Shown: piece after piece, positions 21,161 to 61,631 of the stretch
Position numbering within the stretch: position 1 is the first letter of the stretch
How the letters are laid out: each line of letters starts with the position of its first letter
NCBI GenBank assembly: GCA_945877575.1
Contig: CAMDUE010000003.1
Span: forward strand, 1-64,000
Length of the DNA: 64,000 nucleotides
Direction: 5' to 3'
Source of the DNA: Chitinophaga pinensis
GTDB taxonomy: Bacteria > Bacteroidota > Bacteroidia > NS11-12g > UBA955
Made by a program: the position numbers and the translations under genes
The notes under the pieces: model-generated
What the model saw: the letters and a program-made list of their open reading frames with translations, nothing else
What the model was told of the DNA's origin: nothing
The model's database searches: none

Positions 21161-23782
21161 TTATTGAACCATCAATTTCTGTGTAGTGCTTGCGCCGTTT
21201 GCCAACACAACTTGAACGAAATAGTATCCTGATTTCAAGTTTGACACATCCAAGCGTGTTTGATTATCTCCTACTTGGGCATTTATGTTTTGATTGATTA
21301 CAGTTTTACCTTCCATGCTTACCACTTTAATTGTTGCTTTTCCTCCGTTAGAACGGAAGCTAACATTTGCGAATTCTTTAGATGGATTTGGAGAAAGTGT
21401 CATTTCAAAAGCGCTCTTTGCTATTTTCTTTGTTGAAGTCAACAAGTTTGAACTCTGGTAATATCCACGACCGTGAGTACCGATGTACAAACGCATTCCT
21501 TCCCAAGGCTTCCACTCGTAACCACGAATTTCGAATACAGGCACACGAGCCATACCGTCGTTAGCCTCTTCCCATTTGGTACCACCGTTTTCAGTTACCC
21601 AAACACCTAAGTCTGTTCCTAAGATGATTCTATCTGGATCATCAACGTCAATCACTGCATCGTATACAGGCATGCTTGGCAAATTGCCAGTGATGTTTTT
21701 CCAAGTTGGAGCATCATCTAACGCATTTTCTGTTTCATAAACATATGTTGAGTTTCCGTATCCACCCAAAGTAATTACAACGTGATTGGAGTTCTCAGGA
21801 TTCACATTCACTGAAGTAACTGTTCTTCCTGCAGCGCCACCCAAACTCAATTGCTTCTGCGAAATACCAGCCGGAACTTGAGTTGCTACGGGATTTGCAT
21901 CTAATGTGTAAGTAGCGTCATTTAAACCGTCTAAACGGAACAATGCTCCCGCCTTTGCGATAAATAAATGATTACCGTCTGTGGTATAATCCATTTCAAT
22001 GATTCGGCTGTTACCTAAAGCATCACCCACCAAAAACCAATTTACAGGATTTGCAAAATCTGTTGGGTTGGTAGCCATCCAAACTTGGTTGTTTTTAGCC
22101 AAGTACAATCTTGATTCTTTTTCATTCTTTTCCCAAAGGTTATAAGTAGTATTAAAGTCAGTTTGTACAGTACCTGCTTGACGATCATCCCAGAATGTAG
22201 AAGATGATTGACCAGAATTGTTTGATCTAACAACAGTACCATAATAAATAGACATAAAAACTACACTTGGGTCATATTTACTGAATTCAACATCAAATCC
22301 ATCACCACCGTAGATGGAAATGGCTGTTTTAGAAGGAATGCCATTGAATGAGTTCCCAGAGAAGTTGATCAATTGAGTACCATTATCTTGTGAGCCACCC
22401 ACAATATGTCCGAGTGAGTTTGCCGCGACATTATATAGTTGTAATGTTGTAAAACCACGATTCAAGGGTGTCCAAGTTTGGTAATCTTGGCTAGCGAACA
22501 ACCCACCGTCACAACCAACAATACAAGTTGCTGGTTTGGTATTCATGTTCCAAGTAATCATGTGCTTATCGGCATGAACATACTCAGAGTTCCAAGGTGC
22601 ACCGAAAGTTGATGCGAATTCGCGATATCCGTTTGTTTTATCCCATTTTGCCAAAGTTACACCCCCTAAAATCACTTCGTCTTTCTTACCAGGAACAACA
22701 CCAATCACGTTATCATACCAACCTTGGTTGTTTGATGAGAAGATGTTGTTGTTTGAGTTTCCTACAATGATTTGCTCCCAGGTTGTTCCTCCATCGGTAG
22801 TGCGATATACACCTACCAAGCGGCCGTAATTTGCTCCGGCACCGCCGGCTCCCATGGTGTACACATAATTATCATCATCTGGAGAAATTGCGATTGCGGT
22901 TCTTCCGCCAGAGCTGTAACCTTGGTTAACAATTTTAATGGCTTGTCCATCTTCTTTCTTATAAACAGAACCATTAGAAGTGGTTGCCCAAATCACTCCT
23001 TTTTTATCTAATTTAACCTCTTTCACCGAACCAGCGGTTAAACGAGTAATTTTCGCAGTTGCTCCAGTCATATCAAACTCGTAAAGTCCGCTTTCAGAAG
23101 CTACGTAAAATTTATTTTGATCGGGATGTGAAGCCATTCCGTTGCATTCAAAGAAACGGTTGTCTTTGGCTTCGTTCATCAAAGAAAAGGCAGTACCTTT
23201 TTCGTCTGAGCTTACGTAGATACCATTTCCGTAAAATGCGGGCGAACCATTTCTAGTACCACCAAGGTTGGTAAATCCACCCTCACCTGTTCCGTAATAA
23301 ATTTTACCGTCTGGAGTTTGAGCTATACAAGTAACGTTTAAGTTTTCTTGCATGTCGTTAATAGGTGACCAGCTCTGACCTGAAGTACTTGAACGGAACA
23401 TACCGCCACTCACACCGCCAGCAAACCAAACCTTTTGATCTTTATTTGAAACCAAAAATGCACGAATTCTTCCTCCTACGTTGTCAGGACCCATATTTGT
23501 CCAATCAATCTTTTTGTTCAATCGTTTTGCGATAGATTTAAGATTGTCAGCTTGTTGAACTGCATCAGCCATCCATTGGGGATTCAAATCGCCAGTTTTT
23601 TCATTGAAACGAAGACTGTAAATCGATTCAATAGCACCACGAATGTGTTGCTCGGCGCCCGAAGCTTCATTTTTCAATTCAGCATTTTTAAAACCGGGAA
23701 GTCCTTGTTTTAACCCACCAACAGCAACTACGGCAAGCAGTCCCGCTGATAAGGTAAATGGTATAATTCTATTCATTCTCAT
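21161..23782 (-). CDS. T9SS-secreted beta-propeller protein (BNR/sortilin-like repeats)
   Basis: The 873-residue product starts with a signal peptide (hydrophobic 8-23). The middle has propeller blades with Asp-box-like turns (STSGQSWSPI, TTDGGTTWEQI, ENGGTKWEEA) at about 125-750, as in exo-alpha-sialidase/sortilin folds; a glycan-degrading activity is not shown. The last 75 residues are a type A Por sorting domain: LSPNPSKEFANVSF, then VVSMEGKTVI, then LKSGYYFVQVVL, ending KLMVQ. Such a domain is cut off when the protein leaves by the type IX system. So the organism should have a working T9SS elsewhere. A terminator follows inside dapF. Confidence 0.88.
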   Translation of the reverse strand: MRMNRIIPFTLSAGLLAVVAVGGLKQGLPGFKNAELKNEASGAEQHIRGAIESIYSLRFNEKTGDLNPQWMADAVQQADNLKSIAKRLNKKIDWTNMGPDNVGGRIRAFLVSNKDQKVWFAGGVSGGMFRSSTSGQSWSPINDMQENLNVTCIAQTPDGKIYYGTGEGGFTNLGGTRNGSPAFYGNGIYVSSDEKGTAFSLMNEAKDNRFFECNGMASHPDQNKFYVASESGLYEFDMTGATAKITRLTAGSVKEVKLDKKGVIWATTSNGSVYKKEDGQAIKIVNQGYSSGGRTAIAISPDDDNYVYTMGAGGAGANYGRLVGVYRTTDGGTTWEQIIVGNSNNNIFSSNNQGWYDNVIGVVPGKKDEVILGGVTLAKWDKTNGYREFASTFGAPWNSEYVHADKHMITWNMNTKPATCIVGCDGGLFASQDYQTWTPLNRGFTTLQLYNVAANSLGHIVGGSQDNGTQLINFSGNSFNGIPSKTAISIYGGDGFDVEFSKYDPSVVFMSIYYGTVVRSNNSGQSSSTFWDDRQAGTVQTDFNTTYNLWEKNEKESRLYLAKNNQVWMATNPTDFANPVNWFLVGDALGNSRIIEMDYTTDGNHLFIAKAGALFRLDGLNDATYTLDANPVATQVPAGISQKQLSLGGAAGRTVTSVNVNPENSNHVVITLGGYGNSTYVYETENALDDAPTWKNITGNLPSMPVYDAVIDVDDPDRIILGTDLGVWVTENGGTKWEEANDGMARVPVFEIRGYEWKPWEGMRLYIGTHGRGYYQSSNLLTSTKKIAKSAFEMTLSPNPSKEFANVSFRSNGGKATIKVVSMEGKTVINQNINAQVGDNQTRLDVSNLKSGYYFVQVVLANGASTTQKLMVQ

Positions 23783-52896: not shown

Positions 52897-52922
52897 AAAA
52901 AAGGCTCCCTTGGGAGCCTTTT
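52897..52922 (-). terminator. Terminator of the GldLM-like operon
   Basis: A perfect 9-bp stem (AAGGCTCCC, 52901-52909, with GGGAGCCTT, 52912-52920) and a two-base loop, flanked by A on the left and T on the right, so it can act in both directions. It lies five bases after the stop of the 52927 gene and separates the operon from odhB. Confidence 0.9.
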
Positions 52923-52926
52923 CATA

Positions 52927-55170
52927 TTAGTTCTTTTTTGATTCTTTTTCTTTCAGAGTTTCAATCTTAGGATTCTTGTCTTCCTTGCTCAACAGTCTGT
53001 AAGACAGTCCCATATGCAATTGATAGTACCAATCGTTTAATCCGTCAGTAGAGCGGGCTGCGGTAGATGCTATTTTTCTAGGAGTTTCCGAACCACCTGA
53101 AACTTTATAGAGTTTCGCCAAAGGTTGATTTAGATTCCCATCAGCCCAAAATGTTTGGTCTTCGCTGAAATATGGATTATCTTTAATTGACTGCATCCAC
53201 TGATCATAATCACCACCGTACCAAAGTCCTGGACCAAAATCATCCAAATAATCAGTGAATGTATAAACTGCCTTCATCTCACCTTTGAATGCCCAACGTT
53301 TTCTGATGTATGACAATTGCCAAGAAAAACCGGTATTCATTGAAACTTTACTGTAAGGTTTTGAGTTTTCTAGAAAATTTTGACCTTCTAAACCCAATTC
53401 TCTTAAATTAATTCTTTCCTCACTCCAAAGTCTAGCTTTATAAGCAGAACTAGACTCGTCATTCCTTTGATTCCTGTATGCTATTCTGTAGGGAGTATAT
53501 GTAAAAACACCCACACTTACTCCAATACTATTAACAAACTTACCCTTTTGGCCTGGTTTCAAATTGTATTTTCCAATATGCCAAACTCCCTCAACATCCA
53601 AAATAGTCATAGGCGTCACAAACATCATTGGCCAAGTATTTCCATACGGCCTAAATTTATTTCCAGCGGTATCTGTTACTTCTGGAACTACACCACCAGA
53701 TAGCAAACCCGTTGCCCAAAGGTTGTGCATTGAAATGGTTGATCTATAGATATTTGACTTTAATGAAAATGCATTAGTAATATTGTACTGCGCATAACCA
53801 CCTCCACTAATCTCCAAAGTACTCGGTGGACCTGGCATAAACCCACCATTGACATTATCAAATGGGAAAAATTTGTGCTTGATATCACCTCCACCATAGA
53901 TAGATCCACCGCCCCAAAAACCAAATTCCCAAGTTTTTAATTTAACAATCTCCTTAGGTTTATGGAACATTGGAATAATTACCATGAATCCAACTTTTGC
54001 TTTCAAAGTTGTGTCAGGCCATTCTGGACTGATTAACGTAGTGTCTACACGTCGGTATATTGGTGGAGGCAATTGAGCCGCAGTTAACTTTGGCACGTTG
54101 TATTTCAATCCATTTTGCAAGGTTAAAGTTGCAGGATTCCCTTCCAGATAGGTTGCAATCAGGCTGTCGCCAGCGAGGTTTTGATTGATGAAAACCGCTC
54201 TTCCAAAAGAATCTTTCATTTCAACAATTTTCGGTTGCCCTACCACTTCTAATGCTAAACGTCCAAATTTATGAGTTGCACCCGTGATGAATATTTCATC
54301 TCCTCCCTTTTCTTTAAGGTTGGACGTCTCTGTTGCACCAATTTTGGGTAAACGTGGATCTCGACGATTATCGAAAATAACTTGTGTACTAGATACATTA
54401 GAGAATATCTTTCCCGATGGAATATTCACCGGAACACCAGAACCGCCACTCACTGAAAGTCCTATATTATTGTCACCCGCTTTATTATTTACAAAAGTCA
54501 AATTTCCCAAAGAAACCTGATCGGAAATTACAGTATGTGCAAAATCTAAATGAAGAATTCCCATTGAAGCATTGTCACCCTTCAACGTATTATCATTGAA
54601 TGTTAGGTTATCCAATGTATACTTAATGCCTAATGAACCGACCTTTTCAAGAATAACGTTCCCGGAATTGTTGAAGAAACGAGAATTGGTGATTTGAAAA
54701 TCAATATTCTTATTATCTCTCAAATCCAAAAGTGGCGAAGATGCATAAATCAAAGGCTCACGAGAATCTATACTTGAAAAATTTACATTGTTGATTTGCA
54801 CAGACTTTCTGTACCAAAAAGGATCAAATCGAAGAGCCTGAACCAATCCAGAAACCTCAGCATTCTCAACTATAACTTCCTGATTTCTAGATTTATTGTC
54901 AGCAATTACAATACCCAACCCCGGGGTTTCAGCGTTGCGAGACGTAATTTTGACTGGGTTATCTTGAGTACCCTTTATAATTAGGCCACCAAACACCAAC
55001 AAACGTGCTCCGTCCTCAAATACTAAGGTTTGACCAGACTTTACGCTAAAAGTTTCAGAAGAATCTACCACCCTTGTGCCAGATATAACCACTTCGCTAG
55101 ACTGCGCTTTAAGCATCGAAAACGATGCCAAGGCTAAAATAGTTGAAAAGGTATGAAATATATTTCTCAT
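52927..55170 (-). CDS. Beta-helix plus outer-membrane barrel protein of the GldLM-like operon
   Basis: I do not know a named family for the whole protein. The 747-residue product has a signal peptide (about 4-22, ending LKAQS). Residues about 25-270 show short beta repeats with stacked asparagines (QINNVNFSSID, FQITNSRFFNNSGN, DNLTFNDNTLKGDN, GNLTFVNNKAGDNN), the look of a right-handed parallel beta-helix. From about 400 on it shows strands with Gly and aromatic residues (WEFGFWGGGSIYGGGDIKH, EISGGGYAQYNITNAF) and YTFTDYLDDFGPGLWYGGDY, which resembles DUF6089-type outer-membrane barrels. The end (EKESKKN) is a soluble tail. It is the last gene of an operon with a GldL-like and two GldM-like proteins, and I infer that it is the outer-membrane partner of that motor. 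Confidence 0.75.
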   Translation of the reverse strand: MRNIFHTFSTILALASFSMLKAQSSEVVISGTRVVDSSETFSVKSGQTLVFEDGARLLVFGGLIIKGTQDNPVKITSRNAETPGLGIVIADNKSRNQEVIVENAEVSGLVQALRFDPFWYRKSVQINNVNFSSIDSREPLIYASSPLLDLRDNKNIDFQITNSRFFNNSGNVILEKVGSLGIKYTLDNLTFNDNTLKGDNASMGILHLDFAHTVISDQVSLGNLTFVNNKAGDNNIGLSVSGGSGVPVNIPSGKIFSNVSSTQVIFDNRRDPRLPKIGATETSNLKEKGGDEIFITGATHKFGRLALEVVGQPKIVEMKDSFGRAVFINQNLAGDSLIATYLEGNPATLTLQNGLKYNVPKLTAAQLPPPIYRRVDTTLISPEWPDTTLKAKVGFMVIIPMFHKPKEIVKLKTWEFGFWGGGSIYGGGDIKHKFFPFDNVNGGFMPGPPSTLEISGGGYAQYNITNAFSLKSNIYRSTISMHNLWATGLLSGGVVPEVTDTAGNKFRPYGNTWPMMFVTPMTILDVEGVWHIGKYNLKPGQKGKFVNSIGVSVGVFTYTPYRIAYRNQRNDESSSAYKARLWSEERINLRELGLEGQNFLENSKPYSKVSMNTGFSWQLSYIRKRWAFKGEMKAVYTFTDYLDDFGPGLWYGGDYDQWMQSIKDNPYFSEDQTFWADGNLNQPLAKLYKVSGGSETPRKIASTAARSTDGLNDWYYQLHMGLSYRLLSKEDKNPKIETLKEKESKKN

Positions 55171-55176
55171 TGTTGA

Positions 55177-56547
55177 TTACTTAATTTGAATTACTAATGG
55201 CTTCTCAAAAACCATGCCCTTTGAACCAGTATTAATATCTGCGCCTTGAACCACTATGTATTTCACTTTATCAACTTGATCTGCTGATAAGGAAATCTTG
55301 TTGCCGGTAGAGTTCATTACCTCGTTTGTTGCACCAACTAAACGATATTTAATGTTAGATAATGAATATTTAAACTTCTGCAAATCAGGATGTGTACCAT
55401 AAATATTCACAAATCCATCTGCTTTTAAACGAGTTCTAGACATTATACCACCGCTGGTTCCCTCTGCATAAAGAAAGGGCTCAGGAATCTTTTGAACGTA
55501 AATAGAATCCCTCAAAAGTGCTTTACCATCTTTATTGTTAATGATAAAACTGCACCAACCTGCCTTTTGAGGAGTAAAGGTAACTTTGTTACTGCTTCTG
55601 TTCATTGCAATGTTAGGATCGCAATCACAGCTAATTCCGGCTGGGTTTAATAAGTTCACGTAATGCAATTCCGCTGGTTTGCCTTCGTAAAAAATATTAT
55701 ACTTATTGTCTTTTTCGCGCTCAAACGTCTTAGCAATAGAAGTTACTTTTAACGTCTCTTCAACCCCATTCTTTTTGAAGCTCAAATTGTAAATACCTAC
55801 ATATTTGGGCACAAAAAACAAGGTATCTCCATGCCAATCGGTCAAGTCAAATACTTTATCGTTCTCGGTAGCATTAACTTGCATTTCCTCGTGATTAAAT
55901 ACTACAATTCTAACTGTGTCACCAGGGCGCACAGCTTCCATGTTGTAGGCCATAAGCACTAAATAATCGTCATTTTGTTCCTCTTTAAGAATGATTCCAC
56001 CATTTAAAAGCTTCATTCTGAGTTTCAAATCAGCCAACCAAGTTACAACTACTCCAGCAGGAACGTGCTTGAATTTCCATTCTACCCATAGTGTTGCTTT
56101 TTCAGATTCCAAACCATTTTTCAAATCGTCAGCAAACAACTTTTTAAATTCGGCCTTCTTGGGATTGTTATCTGGGAGTGCTAAATGATACTTTTTCAAT
56201 TCGACCAATTTTTCGAAGAGATTGTATCCTTTCTTCCAACGGATAAAATACATATCTGTACCGCTGTAACTGTCAGGATCTTTGTAAATCTTCTTATCCA
56301 TATCGTATCCAACTTCCTTGTAGAACTCTTTTTCAATACTCTCAACCTCATTGTAAACCGCTAAAATTTGTTTGTTATCCATTTCAACAGATGTCGAGTT
56401 ATTAATGTATTGTGATATATTGATGTTGGTTCTCAACCAATCAATGGGTATTTGCAAAATTGACAATGAAATGAACAATAAGTACATGACGCTTATCAAT
56501 TGAAATCGTAGAACCTTGGCTTTTTTTACTCTAACAAAATTTCCCAT
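55177..56547 (-). CDS. GldM-like periplasmic shaft protein, second copy
   Basis: The 456-residue product has a short basic N-terminus with Arg14, one membrane helix (about 15-33) and then about 420 periplasmic residues. A helical first part (about 55-185) is followed by beta-rich domains ending VFEKPLVIQIK. This is the layout of GldM/PorM, which form a dimeric shaft standing in a GldL ring. Primary sequence is divergent: the usual RQKMINLMYLV start appears only as RFQLISVMYLLF. A Cys-Asp-Cys pair (ISCDCDPN) lies near residue 305. It is only distantly like the neighbouring GldM-like protein but shares start, size and domain order, so the two look like diverged duplicates. Confidence 0.75.
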   Translation of the reverse strand: MGNFVRVKKAKVLRFQLISVMYLLFISLSILQIPIDWLRTNINISQYINNSTSVEMDNKQILAVYNEVESIEKEFYKEVGYDMDKKIYKDPDSYSGTDMYFIRWKKGYNLFEKLVELKKYHLALPDNNPKKAEFKKLFADDLKNGLESEKATLWVEWKFKHVPAGVVVTWLADLKLRMKLLNGGIILKEEQNDDYLVLMAYNMEAVRPGDTVRIVVFNHEEMQVNATENDKVFDLTDWHGDTLFFVPKYVGIYNLSFKKNGVEETLKVTSIAKTFEREKDNKYNIFYEGKPAELHYVNLLNPAGISCDCDPNIAMNRSSNKVTFTPQKAGWCSFIINNKDGKALLRDSIYVQKIPEPFLYAEGTSGGIMSRTRLKADGFVNIYGTHPDLQKFKYSLSNIKYRLVGATNEVMNSTGNKISLSADQVDKVKYIVVQGADINTGSKGMVFEKPLVIQIK

Positions 56548-56548
56548 G

Positions 56549-57958
56549 TTACTTTATAATTATTACCGGCCTACCCTTTGTAACCACACCATCAGTTTGA
56601 CCCACCAAGCGAATATTATCAAAAATCAGCACGCTGCCTGTTGGAGCTGAGGATTCTAATTCTCTTAGGTCATTACGCAAGAAACGAGTTGAACTATGAG
56701 TTCTCTTTGAAAATCCATTGGGATGAGTAACACTCATATCAAAATCCACCACTTGCCAAAACGTATTTTTTGCTTCTAATTTGTTTGCTTGACTCAGATC
56801 AACTGAATTACCGCTCACATCCATTAAAACTACTTCTTCTTCAGGCTTAACCGTTGCGACAAAGTCAGATTCATCAATGAACTTACCATTGTCGAACATT
56901 TGAACACTAAAAATCCCCTCTCGATCTGGAGTAATTATAAGCTTCCAGCCTTTTCTCTCTATTTTCGCTACTTTAGATGAGAAGGTAATATTGCGTCCTC
57001 TTGGGACATATCCGCTATCTAAAGTTACATACAATGCATCACCCACAAAGCCAGAAACAGAACTCGCCGAGTTGATAAATCTAAATGAAGGAGGCACTAC
57101 CTTGAACGATGCAAACAATCTTTTGTCGTTTGACATTACTTCCAAAGCGTAATCACCTACAGCCGGGGGTAAAAAATACATTTTAAAATCATTAGACCTC
57201 AAAGAATCAACTTTGATTGGAGAACCATTAATCTTAACTGTTGGTCTTTTTCCGATTTCTTTTGGACGAATGATCAAATCAAGGGGTTCACCCAAAATTA
57301 AATTCTTCTTGAATTTCTGAATGAAATCAGTCTCGTCTAAGGTTAAAATCTCAAACTTTGGCAGTTCAGATTCTTTCTTTTTCATTGCCAAAATGGAATG
57401 ATAAAGCATCACTGTTTTAAAGTGTTCAACCACTGAAGGGATTACACCGTTGGGTGTGCCCTTAAAAAAGTAATACAACCCCTCATACTCAACACCCTTG
57501 CTATCTTTCAATGAAACAAACTCCTCTTTTAGGTTTTGGTTACCAACAGTGTTGTAGGTCTTGATGAAATTGCTTAGCGTTTTTTCAATGATTGGCCCCC
57601 ATTTACCGTTTCTAACTTCCTGTTCAGCAAATTTACTTTCTCTGAGTCGGTCACCTGAAATACTCGCTTCTTTCTCGTAAGCATAGTAAGCTTTTTTTAC
57701 ATCTTCCAATGAAGCTAAACACTGCAATGTGGCTTTCTTAAGCTCTACATGCTCAGGTACTTGTGGTTTAAATACGTTCAACTCAGACAGCAAACGCTCG
57801 TTAACCATTTTCTGTGACTCCTGAACATCTGGAAACTGCAGAACATACATTCCAGGAGAGGTAAAGAAGATTTGTACAATGAAAATCAAGTAAAACAAAG
57901 ACAACCTCATGAACGAGATGTTCTTTGCCTTCGAGATTTTTACGGTCAGTTTTCCCAT
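56549..57958 (-). CDS. GldM-like periplasmic shaft protein, first copy
   Basis: The 469-residue product starts MGKLTVKISKAKNISFMRLS with Arg18 next to a single membrane helix (about 17-35). A helical region (about 45-205, VNERLLSELNVFKPQVPEHV and on) is followed by three or so beta-sandwich-like domains, ending KGRPVIIIK. It fits the GldM/PorM plan of one helix plus a four-domain periplasmic shaft, though shorter than canonical GldM (about 510). It is eight bases after the GldL-like gene, the same order as gldL-gldM in T9SS clusters. It is followed one base later by a second, different GldM-like gene. Confidence 0.78.
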   Translation of the reverse strand: MGKLTVKISKAKNISFMRLSLFYLIFIVQIFFTSPGMYVLQFPDVQESQKMVNERLLSELNVFKPQVPEHVELKKATLQCLASLEDVKKAYYAYEKEASISGDRLRESKFAEQEVRNGKWGPIIEKTLSNFIKTYNTVGNQNLKEEFVSLKDSKGVEYEGLYYFFKGTPNGVIPSVVEHFKTVMLYHSILAMKKKESELPKFEILTLDETDFIQKFKKNLILGEPLDLIIRPKEIGKRPTVKINGSPIKVDSLRSNDFKMYFLPPAVGDYALEVMSNDKRLFASFKVVPPSFRFINSASSVSGFVGDALYVTLDSGYVPRGRNITFSSKVAKIERKGWKLIITPDREGIFSVQMFDNGKFIDESDFVATVKPEEEVVLMDVSGNSVDLSQANKLEAKNTFWQVVDFDMSVTHPNGFSKRTHSSTRFLRNDLRELESSAPTGSVLIFDNIRLVGQTDGVVTKGRPVIIIK

Positions 57959-57966
57959 GAAGGATA

Positions 57967-58464
57967 TTACTTATTCAAAAGCTGATTGTATTGGTCGTTG
58001 ATTTTCTTCAGATTATCATTGTAGTTGGTCATCAAACTATTGAATTCAGTCATTGACTGTTTCATTTGGTTTGATTGATCTGCATTTGTGCGCATCTCAG
58101 ATTTGATATCATTAACGGCAGAGGTCATTTCTTTCAAACCCTCATTCAACTGAGCCAAGGTTTGGCTAAATTGCTGCATAGCCGATTGATAACCTGTAGT
58201 ATCTACAGATGTGCTATTGCCTTCATTATCCAACTGCGGAAATACTTGCTCCCACTGATATTCTTTTTCTGTAACCTTTCTTTCAAACGCAGATATTAAA
58301 AATACGATTGCTTCTACAGTCAAACCAATGATAAACATTTCATTGGCAAAGTTCCAACCCAAGAATTTGAACATCGCTCCAACCAATACGATGGCTGCAC
58401 CGACTCCATAGACAAAGGTTACTGCATCTAGTTTACCCTTTTGTTCTTTTTGTGTATTACTCAT
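57967..58464 (-). CDS. GldL-like inner-membrane motor protein
   Basis: The 165-residue product has two membrane helices (about 15-34 and 42-60) that match GldL closely: VYGVGAAIVLVGAMFKFLGW and MFIIGLTVEAIVFLISAFE. Glu51 in the second helix matches the glutamate of GldL thought to carry protons through the motor. The following YQWEQVFPQL also matches GldL (YEWEKVYPEL type). A coiled-coil tail of about 90 residues follows. It is shorter than canonical GldL, which has over 200 residues. GldL forms a pentamer around the GldM helices and powers T9SS and gliding; here no gldK or gldN lies nearby. It follows the coiled-coil gene by six bases. Confidence 0.9.
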   Translation of the reverse strand: MSNTQKEQKGKLDAVTFVYGVGAAIVLVGAMFKFLGWNFANEMFIIGLTVEAIVFLISAFERKVTEKEYQWEQVFPQLDNEGNSTSVDTTGYQSAMQQFSQTLAQLNEGLKEMTSAVNDIKSEMRTNADQSNQMKQSMTEFNSLMTNYNDNLKKINDQYNQLLNK

Positions 58465-58470
58465 ATTGTT

Positions 58471-58950
58471 TTATTTTTTTAATAGGTGTTCTTGGAAGTT
58501 ATTCCAATTTGCAACATTTTGCTTTAACGCTTTCTTCGTTGCAGCATTATTCAATACCAAGAAGATGATGATCACAACAAGTATGCCAATAATCATAATT
58601 ATTAACTGTTGATCAATTTTACGACCCAATTCATCTTGTACTCCTTGTACCACTTTATTTTGATCTTCGAATTTTTTGGTAAATCCATCTAATGCCAAGT
58701 TCATTGCTCTTTCGTTTTGAGCTTGTAACTCCTGAGATCTACGAATTTCAGCTTGAACATCCGCTTTGGTAGACTCAACGTCTGACTTCAGTCTAAAATT
58801 AGCATCTTCAAGTTCACTAATTCTTTTATTTAATACATTATTTTTTGCTTCCAATTGACGAACAGCCGTTTGCAGATCACCTGATTTATCAGACTGCCCA
58901 TAAGAAACAAAAGGCATAGCTATTAAAACGATCAGCGCAAATATTCTCAT
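58471..58950 (-). CDS. Exported coiled-coil protein with C-terminal membrane helix
   Basis: I do not recognise the family. From the ATG at 58950 the product is 159 residues: a signal peptide (IFALIVLIAMPFVSYGQ), a coiled coil of about 95 residues (LQTAVRQLEAKNNVLNKRIS and on), then one very hydrophobic helix (LIIMIIGILVVIIIFLVLNN, about 113-132) and a short basic tail. The coil would lie in the periplasm, anchored by the C-terminal helix. A reading from 59010 would hide the signal peptide behind 20 residues. It is the first gene of the GldL/GldM-like operon, and has an exact -7 box 23 bases upstream. It may be a stator or adaptor of the motor; this is inference. Confidence 0.75.
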   Translation of the reverse strand: MRIFALIVLIAMPFVSYGQSDKSGDLQTAVRQLEAKNNVLNKRISELEDANFRLKSDVESTKADVQAEIRRSQELQAQNERAMNLALDGFTKKFEDQNKVVQGVQDELGRKIDQQLIIMIIGILVVIIIFLVLNNAATKKALKQNVANWNNFQEHLLKK

Positions 58951-58973
58951 AGATTTATAGTTAAATTTTAAAA

Positions 58974-58981
58974 CAAATATA
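58974..58981 (-). promoter_or_regulatory. Putative -7 box of the GldLM-like operon
   Basis: TATATTTG on the minus strand, an exact TAnnTTTG match 23 bases before the ATG at 58950. The -33 position reads GTTA, so that element is weak, which may point to a regulated promoter. Confidence 0.55.
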
Positions 58982-59081
58982 CAAGTAATTCTCAATTTTG
59001 TAACTTTCATTCATTAACAATAATGTTCCATTTACAATGTTAATTATTTCATAATTTACCTGTATTGAAAATAAAAGGGTT

Positions 59082-59102: not shown

Positions 59103-61631
59103 ATGCCATTCAGTAATTACCTGAAAATTGTCGCTTTAGTTTTTCTAAATAATTTCTATATTTTATCCTCGCAAACTCAGGCTAAAAAAAATATTACCAT
59201 TCATATTTACGAGGCCGAAACCCAAGAACCAATACCTTTCGCGTCGGTTTATTGGCAAGGTACTACCTCAGGATTTCAAACTGATTTTGAGGGTAAAATA
59301 TCCACTACTGTTGCACGATTTCAATCAGATTCCCTGAAAATTGTTTTTGGAGGACTTCAAACAAAAATCATCAAAATTGATACCCATCAAACAAGTATAA
59401 ATCTAAATATACTTTTAGATAGAGAAATCATTAAATCGGAAGCCGTTACCATCAATCTTGGCATCAATCCAGCTATCAAATGGATTGACTTAGCCATTGA
59501 TAAACGAAACCAAAATAATTTTGACGAATCTGTTAACTATCAATGCGAAGTTTTCTCCAAAACCGTTCTATCTGTAAATAACCTATCCAAAAAAATTGAG
59601 CGTCTGAAAGTTGGAAAACAAATCAATGCTTTATTTGATACTCTAGAATTCATAACCGGTGATACAGAAAAGGCCGTTTTACCCGTTTTCCTGTCGAACA
59701 CCATTAGTACCTATGGGCATCAAAAAGGCGGAACCCTTGAACGCGAAGACATCCATGCCAGCAGAGTTCACGGCGTTGGAATTACAGATGGCTCTACCAT
59801 TTCACAACTTACTGGTAGCTCTTTTGCCCGCTATAACATTTATAACTCCAGATTACAAATTTTAGGAAAAGGCATTATATCCCCAATAGCGCCGCAAGCC
59901 AAGCTATTCTATAATTATAAACTCATTGACGTAGATAAAACGCATTCCTTAAGATGGTTCGTGGTAAAAGTGTCCCCAAAAAATCCAAAAGATATTTTAT
60001 TCAATGGACTAATTTGGATAGAAGAACAAACCGGTGCTATTACACGTTTGCATCTTGAAATCAATGAAGCGTCTCAAATTAACTTTTTAGAACGACTCAG
60101 AATTACTCAAGAATTTAACCCGTCCAATTTCACCACTCCACCTTATGCCTTGGCTAATTCTCGTTCGTTGGTGGATGTTTCTGAGTTCACAGAAAACACC
60201 ATTGGGTTTCTCGCTACCAATTTATTGACTTTCCGAAAATATGAACTCATTGATGAGTTTCCAACGGGCTATTTTGACCAATCCTTGGTTATGGAAGAAT
60301 CTGCTCTCAAGCGAAGCGATTCTTTTTGGACAGAAGTTGCTCCCATCAAGGCAAGCCCATTTGAAGAAAAAGTCATTAATAAAATTGAAGCGGTTCGTGA
60401 AATACCCACCATTGACAGAGCTTCGAAAGCACTCAATTTTCTGGTTAATGGATACCTTACTGGAAACAAATGGCCCGTAGATATTGGACCTTACTATTAC
60501 CTCGCGCTTTTAAATCCTTTGGAAGGATTTCGGACCCGATGGGGATTCAGGACTTCCAATTATTTATCTAAAAAATGGCAATTTGAAGGATTCGGAGCAT
60601 ACGGTTTCAAAGATCAGAGATTCAAATACGGATTGAAACTCGCTTGGTATCCAAATCTAAAAAAGGGAACCATTATTAAAATCAGTCACACCGAAGACAC
60701 CGAATTGTTGGGATTTGTAGACAACGAAAATGTGACCAGCGGTGATGCTTTGATATTAGCATTGAATATGTTTTCGTCAAACAGTTTAGTCTACAGTCAA
60801 AATAGCTACTTTTCCTTTGAGCAAGACATTGTAAGAGGACTCAGCTTTCAGGTAAAGTTGAATCACCGTATTTACGATTTGCCAGAGTCCCAAAAAATCA
60901 AACTAGGTTGGTTTGAGAACCCCGATTCAGAGAACATTTCTACGCATTTAAACAATAGCACCATCAATTTAAAGCTGACTTATGAGCCAAGAGTTTTTTA
61001 TGTAGTCAATGACTATCGCAGAACCAATTGGGCTCAGCCTGGACCTAAATACTCAATTTCATTTCAAAAGGCTCTTCCTGAAATCCTAGGTAGCACATAT
61101 GATTACGCTAAATTGAGTTTCTTATACAATTACAACCATATTTGGGCAGGCATTGGAAGAACACAAATGAAAATCACCGCCAATAAATTGTTTGGCGATG
61201 TTCCCTTTCCCTTATTAAACATTCCATTGGGAAATCAAGCCATCGTGTATAACACTAGAGCATTCAATCAGATGAACTTATTTGAATTTGTAACTGATCA
61301 AAATATTGAAGCTATCGTTGAACATCATTTCAATGGATTGTTCTTTAATCGAATTCCTTTGTTGAATAAGTTGGGTTGGCGCGAAATCATTAACGCAAAA
61401 CTCATTGAAGGTTCACTTAGCGCTTCTAATCGTTCTTTGATACCCACTGAAATTCAAATCAAAAACAACATTACACCCATAAAATCATTCAATTACGCCC
61501 CATATATTGAAGTTGGTTTTGGAGTAGAAAATATATTCAAATTCCTTAGAGTGGATGCTGTTTGGCGTTTAACTCACCGAAATAACCAAAATAATTTTGG
61601 CATTAAATTATCATCTTACATAGATTTTTAA
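59103..61631 (+). CDS. DUF5686 and carboxypeptidase-regulatory-like domain protein
   Basis: The 842-residue product has a signal peptide (about 7-23), a carboxypeptidase-regulatory-like beta domain at about 30-110 (ITIHIYEAETQEPIPFASVY, then TDFEGKI), and a long DUF5686 region with VLPVFLSNTISTYGHQKGG and GAITRLHLEINEASQINFLE. The C-terminal 400 residues look like an outer-membrane barrel, ending IKLSSYIDF with a terminal Phe. Such proteins are common in Bacteroidota and have no proven role. It is divergent from the GldLM-like operon across a 152-base gap, so the two may be co-regulated. Its stop shares bases with the convergent DUF423 gene (TTAA). Confidence 0.87.
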   Translation: MPFSNYLKIVALVFLNNFYILSSQTQAKKNITIHIYEAETQEPIPFASVYWQGTTSGFQTDFEGKISTTVARFQSDSLKIVFGGLQTKIIKIDTHQTSINLNILLDREIIKSEAVTINLGINPAIKWIDLAIDKRNQNNFDESVNYQCEVFSKTVLSVNNLSKKIERLKVGKQINALFDTLEFITGDTEKAVLPVFLSNTISTYGHQKGGTLEREDIHASRVHGVGITDGSTISQLTGSSFARYNIYNSRLQILGKGIISPIAPQAKLFYNYKLIDVDKTHSLRWFVVKVSPKNPKDILFNGLIWIEEQTGAITRLHLEINEASQINFLERLRITQEFNPSNFTTPPYALANSRSLVDVSEFTENTIGFLATNLLTFRKYELIDEFPTGYFDQSLVMEESALKRSDSFWTEVAPIKASPFEEKVINKIEAVREIPTIDRASKALNFLVNGYLTGNKWPVDIGPYYYLALLNPLEGFRTRWGFRTSNYLSKKWQFEGFGAYGFKDQRFKYGLKLAWYPNLKKGTIIKISHTEDTELLGFVDNENVTSGDALILALNMFSSNSLVYSQNSYFSFEQDIVRGLSFQVKLNHRIYDLPESQKIKLGWFENPDSENISTHLNNSTINLKLTYEPRVFYVVNDYRRTNWAQPGPKYSISFQKALPEILGSTYDYAKLSFLYNYNHIWAGIGRTQMKITANKLFGDVPFPLLNIPLGNQAIVYNTRAFNQMNLFEFVTDQNIEAIVEHHFNGLFFNRIPLLNKLGWREIINAKLIEGSLSASNRSLIPTEIQIKNNITPIKSFNYAPYIEVGFGVENIFKFLRVDAVWRLTHRNNQNNFGIKLSSYIDF

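Follow-up and report, generated by a model that had tools for sequence, protein, structure and literature searches.

The window analyzed here, a stretch of 64,000 nucleotides at the start of a Chitinophaga pinensis contig (CAMDUE010000003.1), carries five tightly spaced open reading frames on its minus strand, which run from 58950 to 52927 with intergenic gaps of 6, 8, 1, and 6 bases and are called g1 to g5 below. An earlier reading of this DNA, made from the sequence alone, had described a closely packed five-gene operon that ends in a perfect terminator and has neither gldK nor gldN, and each of these features was recovered (Table 1); no gldK or gldN adjoined the window operon or occurred in the related loci. 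The promoter-like box that the sequence-only reading had placed ahead of the first gene fared less well. The element TATATTTG does fit TAnnTTTG, the Bacteroidota -7 box consensus, but the match is weak, and a promoter scan found sigma-70-like sites at the level of shuffled sequence (21 observed versus 20.0), with no enrichment. Since the box lies downstream of the open reading frame start at 59010, g1 likely begins at the ATG at 58950; a start at 59010, above the -7-like box, is possible. A search of the window against Rfam gave no match. The divergent neighbor of g1 (59103-61631) encodes an outer-membrane-type protein of the DUF5686 family that includes a CarboxypepD_reg domain, and it adjoins the operon in several close relatives as well. 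A more distant gene of the window (21161-23782) encodes an 873-aa protein whose type-A T9SS sorting tail scored highest in the genome (57.9 bits).

Table 1. Genes and candidate expression signals of the five-gene locus (positions in the window)
Feature	Position	Strand	Description
g1	58471..58950	-	159 aa; signal peptide and periplasmic coiled coil, then a single membrane helix and a short tail in the cytoplasm
g2 (GldL2, short GldL paralogue)	57967..58464	-	165 aa; channel Glu51 (equivalent to F. johnsoniae E49), Glu61 (equivalent to E59)
g3 (GldM-like shaft A)	56549..57958	-	469 aa; Ser15 in place of the transmembrane Arg
g4 (GldM-like shaft B)	55177..56547	-	456 aa; transmembrane Arg kept (Arg14)
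g5	52927..55170	-	Signal peptide; beta-helix, ~26-240; beta-rich linker domain, ~294-360; 8-strand PorG-like outer-membrane barrel, ~410-725; no cysteine
Intrinsic terminator	52899..52922	-	Perfect 10-bp hairpin, then T run on the minus strand
TATATTTG, -7-box-like match	~58976..58983	-	Weak; no good -33 box; ~26 bases upstream of the ATG at 58950

Putative ring and shaft subunits

The g2 product matched both the Pfam model GldL_N (PF22827; 1.7e-25, 89.4 bits, cut-off 24) and the NCBI model TIGR03513 (91.0 bits, cut-off 68.3), and it matched the solved GldL/PorL chains at 1e-15. We assign it to the GldL family, in agreement with the sequence-only reading, which had called it a GldL-like protein with the channel glutamate Glu51. 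This residue was invariant in two alignments of 22 and 18 rows, and its equivalent in F. johnsoniae GldL, E49, is essential (PMC8986121). The equivalent of Glu61, E59, is required for adhesin movement and dispensable for secretion in F. johnsoniae (PMC8986121); at this position, Glu was kept throughout the family with the five-gene form, and Asp, Glu, or Gln was found in a sister family of the same order. GldL2 proteins are 163 to 174 aa long, compared to about 210 to 310 aa for canonical GldLs, whose open frames in the genomes examined spanned about 205 to 345 aa. A tree of 63 GldL sequences, built on 101 columns and with long branches that leave its finer branching and root unsettled, parted all 38 canonical GldLs from all GldL2 proteins by a branch with 100/100 support. 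This separation rules out an extra gldLM copy that arose by recent duplication.

The two GldM-like proteins named in the sequence-only reading were recognized by different routes. The g4 product matched Pfam GldM_1st (PF12081; 6.6e-8, 33.2 bits, cut-off 25), and a sequence search with it against the PDB found nothing. The g3 product gave no family match above the cut-off and was recognized as a paralogue of g4 (hhalign 97.5%, E value of 5e-12, 358 columns). In its predicted model, which is of modest to low confidence (pLDDT 57), a membrane helix is accompanied by one helical and three beta domains; the best matches of this model among solved structures were to PorM (6e-12) and then to GldM (7e-10), over approximately 510 columns. 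Both proteins also matched the GldM2 protein of the sister family at about 95% (hhalign). That protein clearly classifies as a GldM, with a match to PorM in the PDB at 1e-23, matches to Pfam GldM domains 1, 3, and 4, and a match to canonical GldM at 97.9%.

The two shaft proteins are, as judged from one residue, not equivalent copies of each other. Arg9 of GldM pairs with Glu49 of GldL, one shaft chain at a time (PMC12239597). The position that corresponds to F. johnsoniae R9 was occupied by Arg in 27 of 27 canonical GldM proteins, 10 of 10 GldM2 proteins, and 9 of 9 g4 proteins versus Ser or Thr in all 10 g3 proteins, with the register fixed by a conserved lysine-rich motif before this position and by Tyr-Leu after it. 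There is a basic residue in g3 (Arg/Lys18) three positions deeper than the lost Arg, and given this residue, the charge may have shifted instead of being lost. The g3 and g4 genes always occurred together wherever the contig extended far enough. This constant co-occurrence and the split between Arg and Ser/Thr suggest a g3:g4 heterodimeric shaft with one active arm; homodimers of g3 and of g4 are a possible alternative.

The first gene, g1, was confined to the version of the module with two GldM-like genes. It has two conserved blocks, QAQNE.(A)MN.ALD...KFE.QN and a C-terminal NW..FQ.H.LK. The earlier description of g1 as an exported coiled-coil protein held for the signal peptide and the periplasmic coiled coil, but the protein is not simply exported, as it also has a helix that spans the membrane and a short tail in the cytoplasm. 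The long cytoplasmic tail of GldL is its proposed anchor (PMC9389320), and since GldL2 is without such a tail, our guess is that g1, as a membrane-anchored coiled coil, may hold the GldL2 ring.

The putative outer-membrane partner and PorG

The last gene, g5, encodes the beta-helix/barrel protein of the sequence-only reading. Its predicted model, of modest confidence (pLDDT 69), has a signal peptide, an N-terminal beta-helix that matched a beta-helix lyase, and a C-terminal 8-strand barrel that matched OmpA/OmpW. A g5 profile found the PorG of its own genome at 1.5e-33. When scored with the PorG model NF052316, which has a cut-off of 130 bits, the window g5 reached 22.6 bits and the g5 proteins of the sister family reached 55 to 71 bits (maximum, 70.9) over nearly the whole model. 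PorG and SprF are disulfide bonded to the moving GldK track; through its C-tail cysteines, PorG is bonded to GldK of this track, which is needed for both secretion and gliding (PMC12635249). A cysteine was found within the last 30 residues of 52 of the 62 PorG-like barrels from the retrieved loci, compared to 1 of 17 g5 proteins, where it lies inside the last strand. The two PorGs of the window's own genome end in cysteine tails (TTCFQF and PLICR); their genes lie in tandem at G000:C2:265163-266963 (L092 and L093), with uppS and a BamA-like gene alongside, and the C-tail cysteine motifs of the two differ. Because g5 falls below the family cut-off and has no such hook, we class it as a relative of PorG and not as a PorG: the hook appears to have been lost and a predicted periplasmic beta-helix fused instead.

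Across 395 genomes of the phylum, the search for full-length g5 returned, outside the window's own order, only PorG-type barrels and unrelated beta-helices. One scan of genome contigs with g5 returned mostly PorGs and three true relatives. At two loci (L040:4337-7012 and G089:C37:1177-4215), the g5 frame extends through another PorG-like barrel, so that one protein combines a beta-helix with two barrels.

Distribution and the canonical system of the same genome

The sequence-only reading had taken the T9SS cargo in the window to imply a canonical system elsewhere, and a canonical porP-gldK-gldL-gldM-gldN cluster was found in the same genome at C1 63-69.5 kb. This genome also encodes GldJ, a single SprA, six PorP-type proteins, the two tandem PorGs, and 77 type-A cargo tails. 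The proposal that the five-gene locus encodes a second motor, separate from the T9SS, is supported by the presence of this canonical porP-gldKLMN together with SprA, GldJ, and PorG. It is supported as well by the position of GldL2 outside the canonical GldLs in the tree and by the recurrence of the five genes together in many genomes. Neither of the two results that the sequence-only reading had named as refuting its proposal was obtained. With no gldK or gldN and with a GldL that stands apart in the tree, the locus does not classify as a canonical gldKLMN module.

Among the 395 sampled genomes of the phylum, a second GldL was found in the window's own genome only, at the sensitivity used. Within the window's order, GldL2 was found in 24 of 108 genomes, nearly all of which also had a canonical GldL. 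The order g1-g2-g3-g4-g5 was kept in 11 loci, and three further loci run off contig ends. The sister family has just GldL2-GldM2-g5, in nine loci, which leads us to regard ring, shaft, and barrel as the minimal module, of which the five-gene form would be a version with two shaft genes for one, plus g1. GldL2 and full-length g5 occurred both in 19, singly in 5 and 3, and neither in 81 of the 108 genomes (p ~8e-14, a value that overstates the independence of these related genomes). Most of the single cases were at contig ends; the exceptions were two genomes of the sister family (G001 and G012) with GldL2-GldM2 and no adjoining g5. Pairs of this kind were seen at L050 and L056, the latter with a very diverged GldL2. 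Two further GldL-like matches (L059 and L060) were weak, lay outside any such module, and were set aside.

In one genome (G107), the five-gene operon is present in full twice, as diverged copies (L035 and L036) whose GldL2 proteins are 90% and 63% identical to that of the window. Another genome, placed in the sister family (G031), has a five-gene-type operon (L045) that is nested in the GldL tree among those of the first family, through either horizontal transfer or assembly contamination. The flanks of the module differ between families, and no conserved non-housekeeping neighbor pointing to a client was found at the related loci. The genes that flank it in the sister family (those for MurB, a pseudouridine synthase, glutamate-semialdehyde dehydrogenase, an AsmA-like protein, ribosomal protein L19, and LeuRS) were considered as parts of the module and rejected as housekeeping synteny. 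At L036, L043, and L044, the gene immediately upstream of g1, in the same orientation, encodes a protein of 950 to 1040 aa that bears a T9SS sorting tail, matches Sortilin/VPS10 weakly, and is a possible client.

Possible modes of action

We consider it probable, with some reserve, that the products of the locus form a further proton motor of the GldLM type, complete in itself, in which a shaft that is likely a g3:g4 heterodimer moves a barrel in the outer membrane and no GldK/N ring takes part. The short GldL2 ring would enclose the membrane helices of a GldM-type shaft, which in the window's lineage would most likely be the g3:g4 heterodimer. By pushing the periplasmic beta-helix of g5 with its far tip, this shaft would move the outer-membrane PorG-type barrel attached to that domain, and the beta-helix would stand in for both the GldK/N ring and the disulfide between PorG and GldK. 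Complex formation, the heterodimer, rotation, direct contact between shaft and beta-helix, and movement of the barrel are all steps that we infer. The direct drive of an outer-membrane partner, as proposed in the sequence-only reading, gains circumstantial support from the nature of g5, a PorG-type barrel with no C-tail cysteine hook and with a periplasmic beta-helix of its own. A point against a ring-free motor is that the canonical system might still supply its GldK/N ring as the partner. More tentatively, and leaning slightly against it ourselves, we suggest an obligate heterodimeric shaft in which one arm alone bears the Arg and which drives the barrel via the fused beta-helix, dispensing with ring, track, and disulfide. 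Such a motor would be a minimal case of direct drive at the outer membrane and a naturally one-armed form of the gliding motor. The purposes offered earlier, surface movement, export of one fixed client, or envelope remodelling, are guesses; moving or opening an outer-membrane client and adhesin-like movement are candidates as well.

The locus might instead encode an additional motor that serves the single canonical T9SS, in which GldL2 and GldM2 would also push the GldK/N track and g5 would be an alternative PorG for the same SprA translocon. The relatedness of g5 to PorG, the single SprA of the genome, the presence of a canonical gldL in almost every genome that bears the module, and the T9SS cargo gene directly upstream of g1 in three genomes all fit this explanation. 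We nevertheless consider it unlikely, as g5 has no C-tail cysteine of the kind that ties PorG to GldK, the GldM-like shafts are far from canonical GldM, and the module is patchy inside genera that all have a T9SS.

It is still less probable that the locus encodes an energizer similar to Ton or Tol, which would perform envelope work (outer-membrane tethering, constriction, or nutrient uptake) via g5 and in which rotation would only extend or pull the shaft. As in ExbBD-TonB and TolQR-TolA-Pal, an inner-membrane proton motor would act here on outer-membrane proteins. The general logic of 5:2 motors (PMC9389320) and the outer-membrane barrel encoded in the operon are consistent with such an energizer, and the asymmetry between g3 and g4 would suit a nonrotary cycle. 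However, the neighborhood shows no substrate and consists of housekeeping genes that differ between families, and family searches found no peptidoglycan-binding domain. Unlike in those systems, the GldM-type shafts themselves span the periplasm, and none of the five-gene proteins had a family match in searches with the ExbBD/TolQR models. Finally, a duplicate of the T9SS motor that is decaying or selfish and has no role of its own would fit the patchy presence and the few broken copies (L038 and L054) but is very improbable given the invariant channel glutamate, a gene order unchanged in widely diverged genomes (the g3 of L096 is 38% identical to that of the window), and dN/dS values of 0.02 to 0.07 in all five genes against two relatives where computable, which point to strong purifying selection.

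Compared to known systems, the putative second motor is closest in its parts to the GldLM/PorLM motor (PDB 6YS8, 7SAT, and 7SAU), with which it shares the GldL_N fold with two membrane helices and a channel glutamate, a GldM-type shaft with a membrane helix, a helical D1, and beta domains, and a gldL immediately before gldM. It differs in its shorter GldL, which falls outside the canonical GldLs, in having no adjoining gldK or gldN, in having its own outer-membrane partner, and in having two different GldMs, one of them without the key Arg. The C-terminal 8-strand barrel of g5 is of the same family as PorG, from which g5 differs in its score below the family cut-off, its lack of a C-tail cysteine, and its fused N-terminal beta-helix. 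The AglRQS system of Myxococcus gliding likewise has a single ring-type subunit and two distinct subunits of the shaft type, AglQ and AglS, whose heterodimer formation is unsettled (PMC9389320), but AglRQS belongs to the MotAB family, not to GldLM, and has other outer partners. In the open literature, with subscription papers outside our scope, we found no description of such a module or of GldLM motors outside the canonical T9SS core.

Taken together, these results suggest that the canonical T9SS core is not the only setting into which GldLM motors have been recruited. The locus bears on how GldLM torque reaches outer-membrane proteins. With the ring and the disulfide seemingly removed and a single chain uniting a PorG-type barrel with a periplasmic receptor domain, it would offer a small system for reconstituting force transfer. 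The residue that distinguishes g3 from g4 is the one proposed to engage the ring from one shaft chain at a time (PMC12239597), and the locus would therefore also allow a direct test of whether rotation needs both arms. The presence of a putative second motor that has no coupling ring and is tied to a barrel of its own suggests that motors of this type can push an outer-membrane protein directly.
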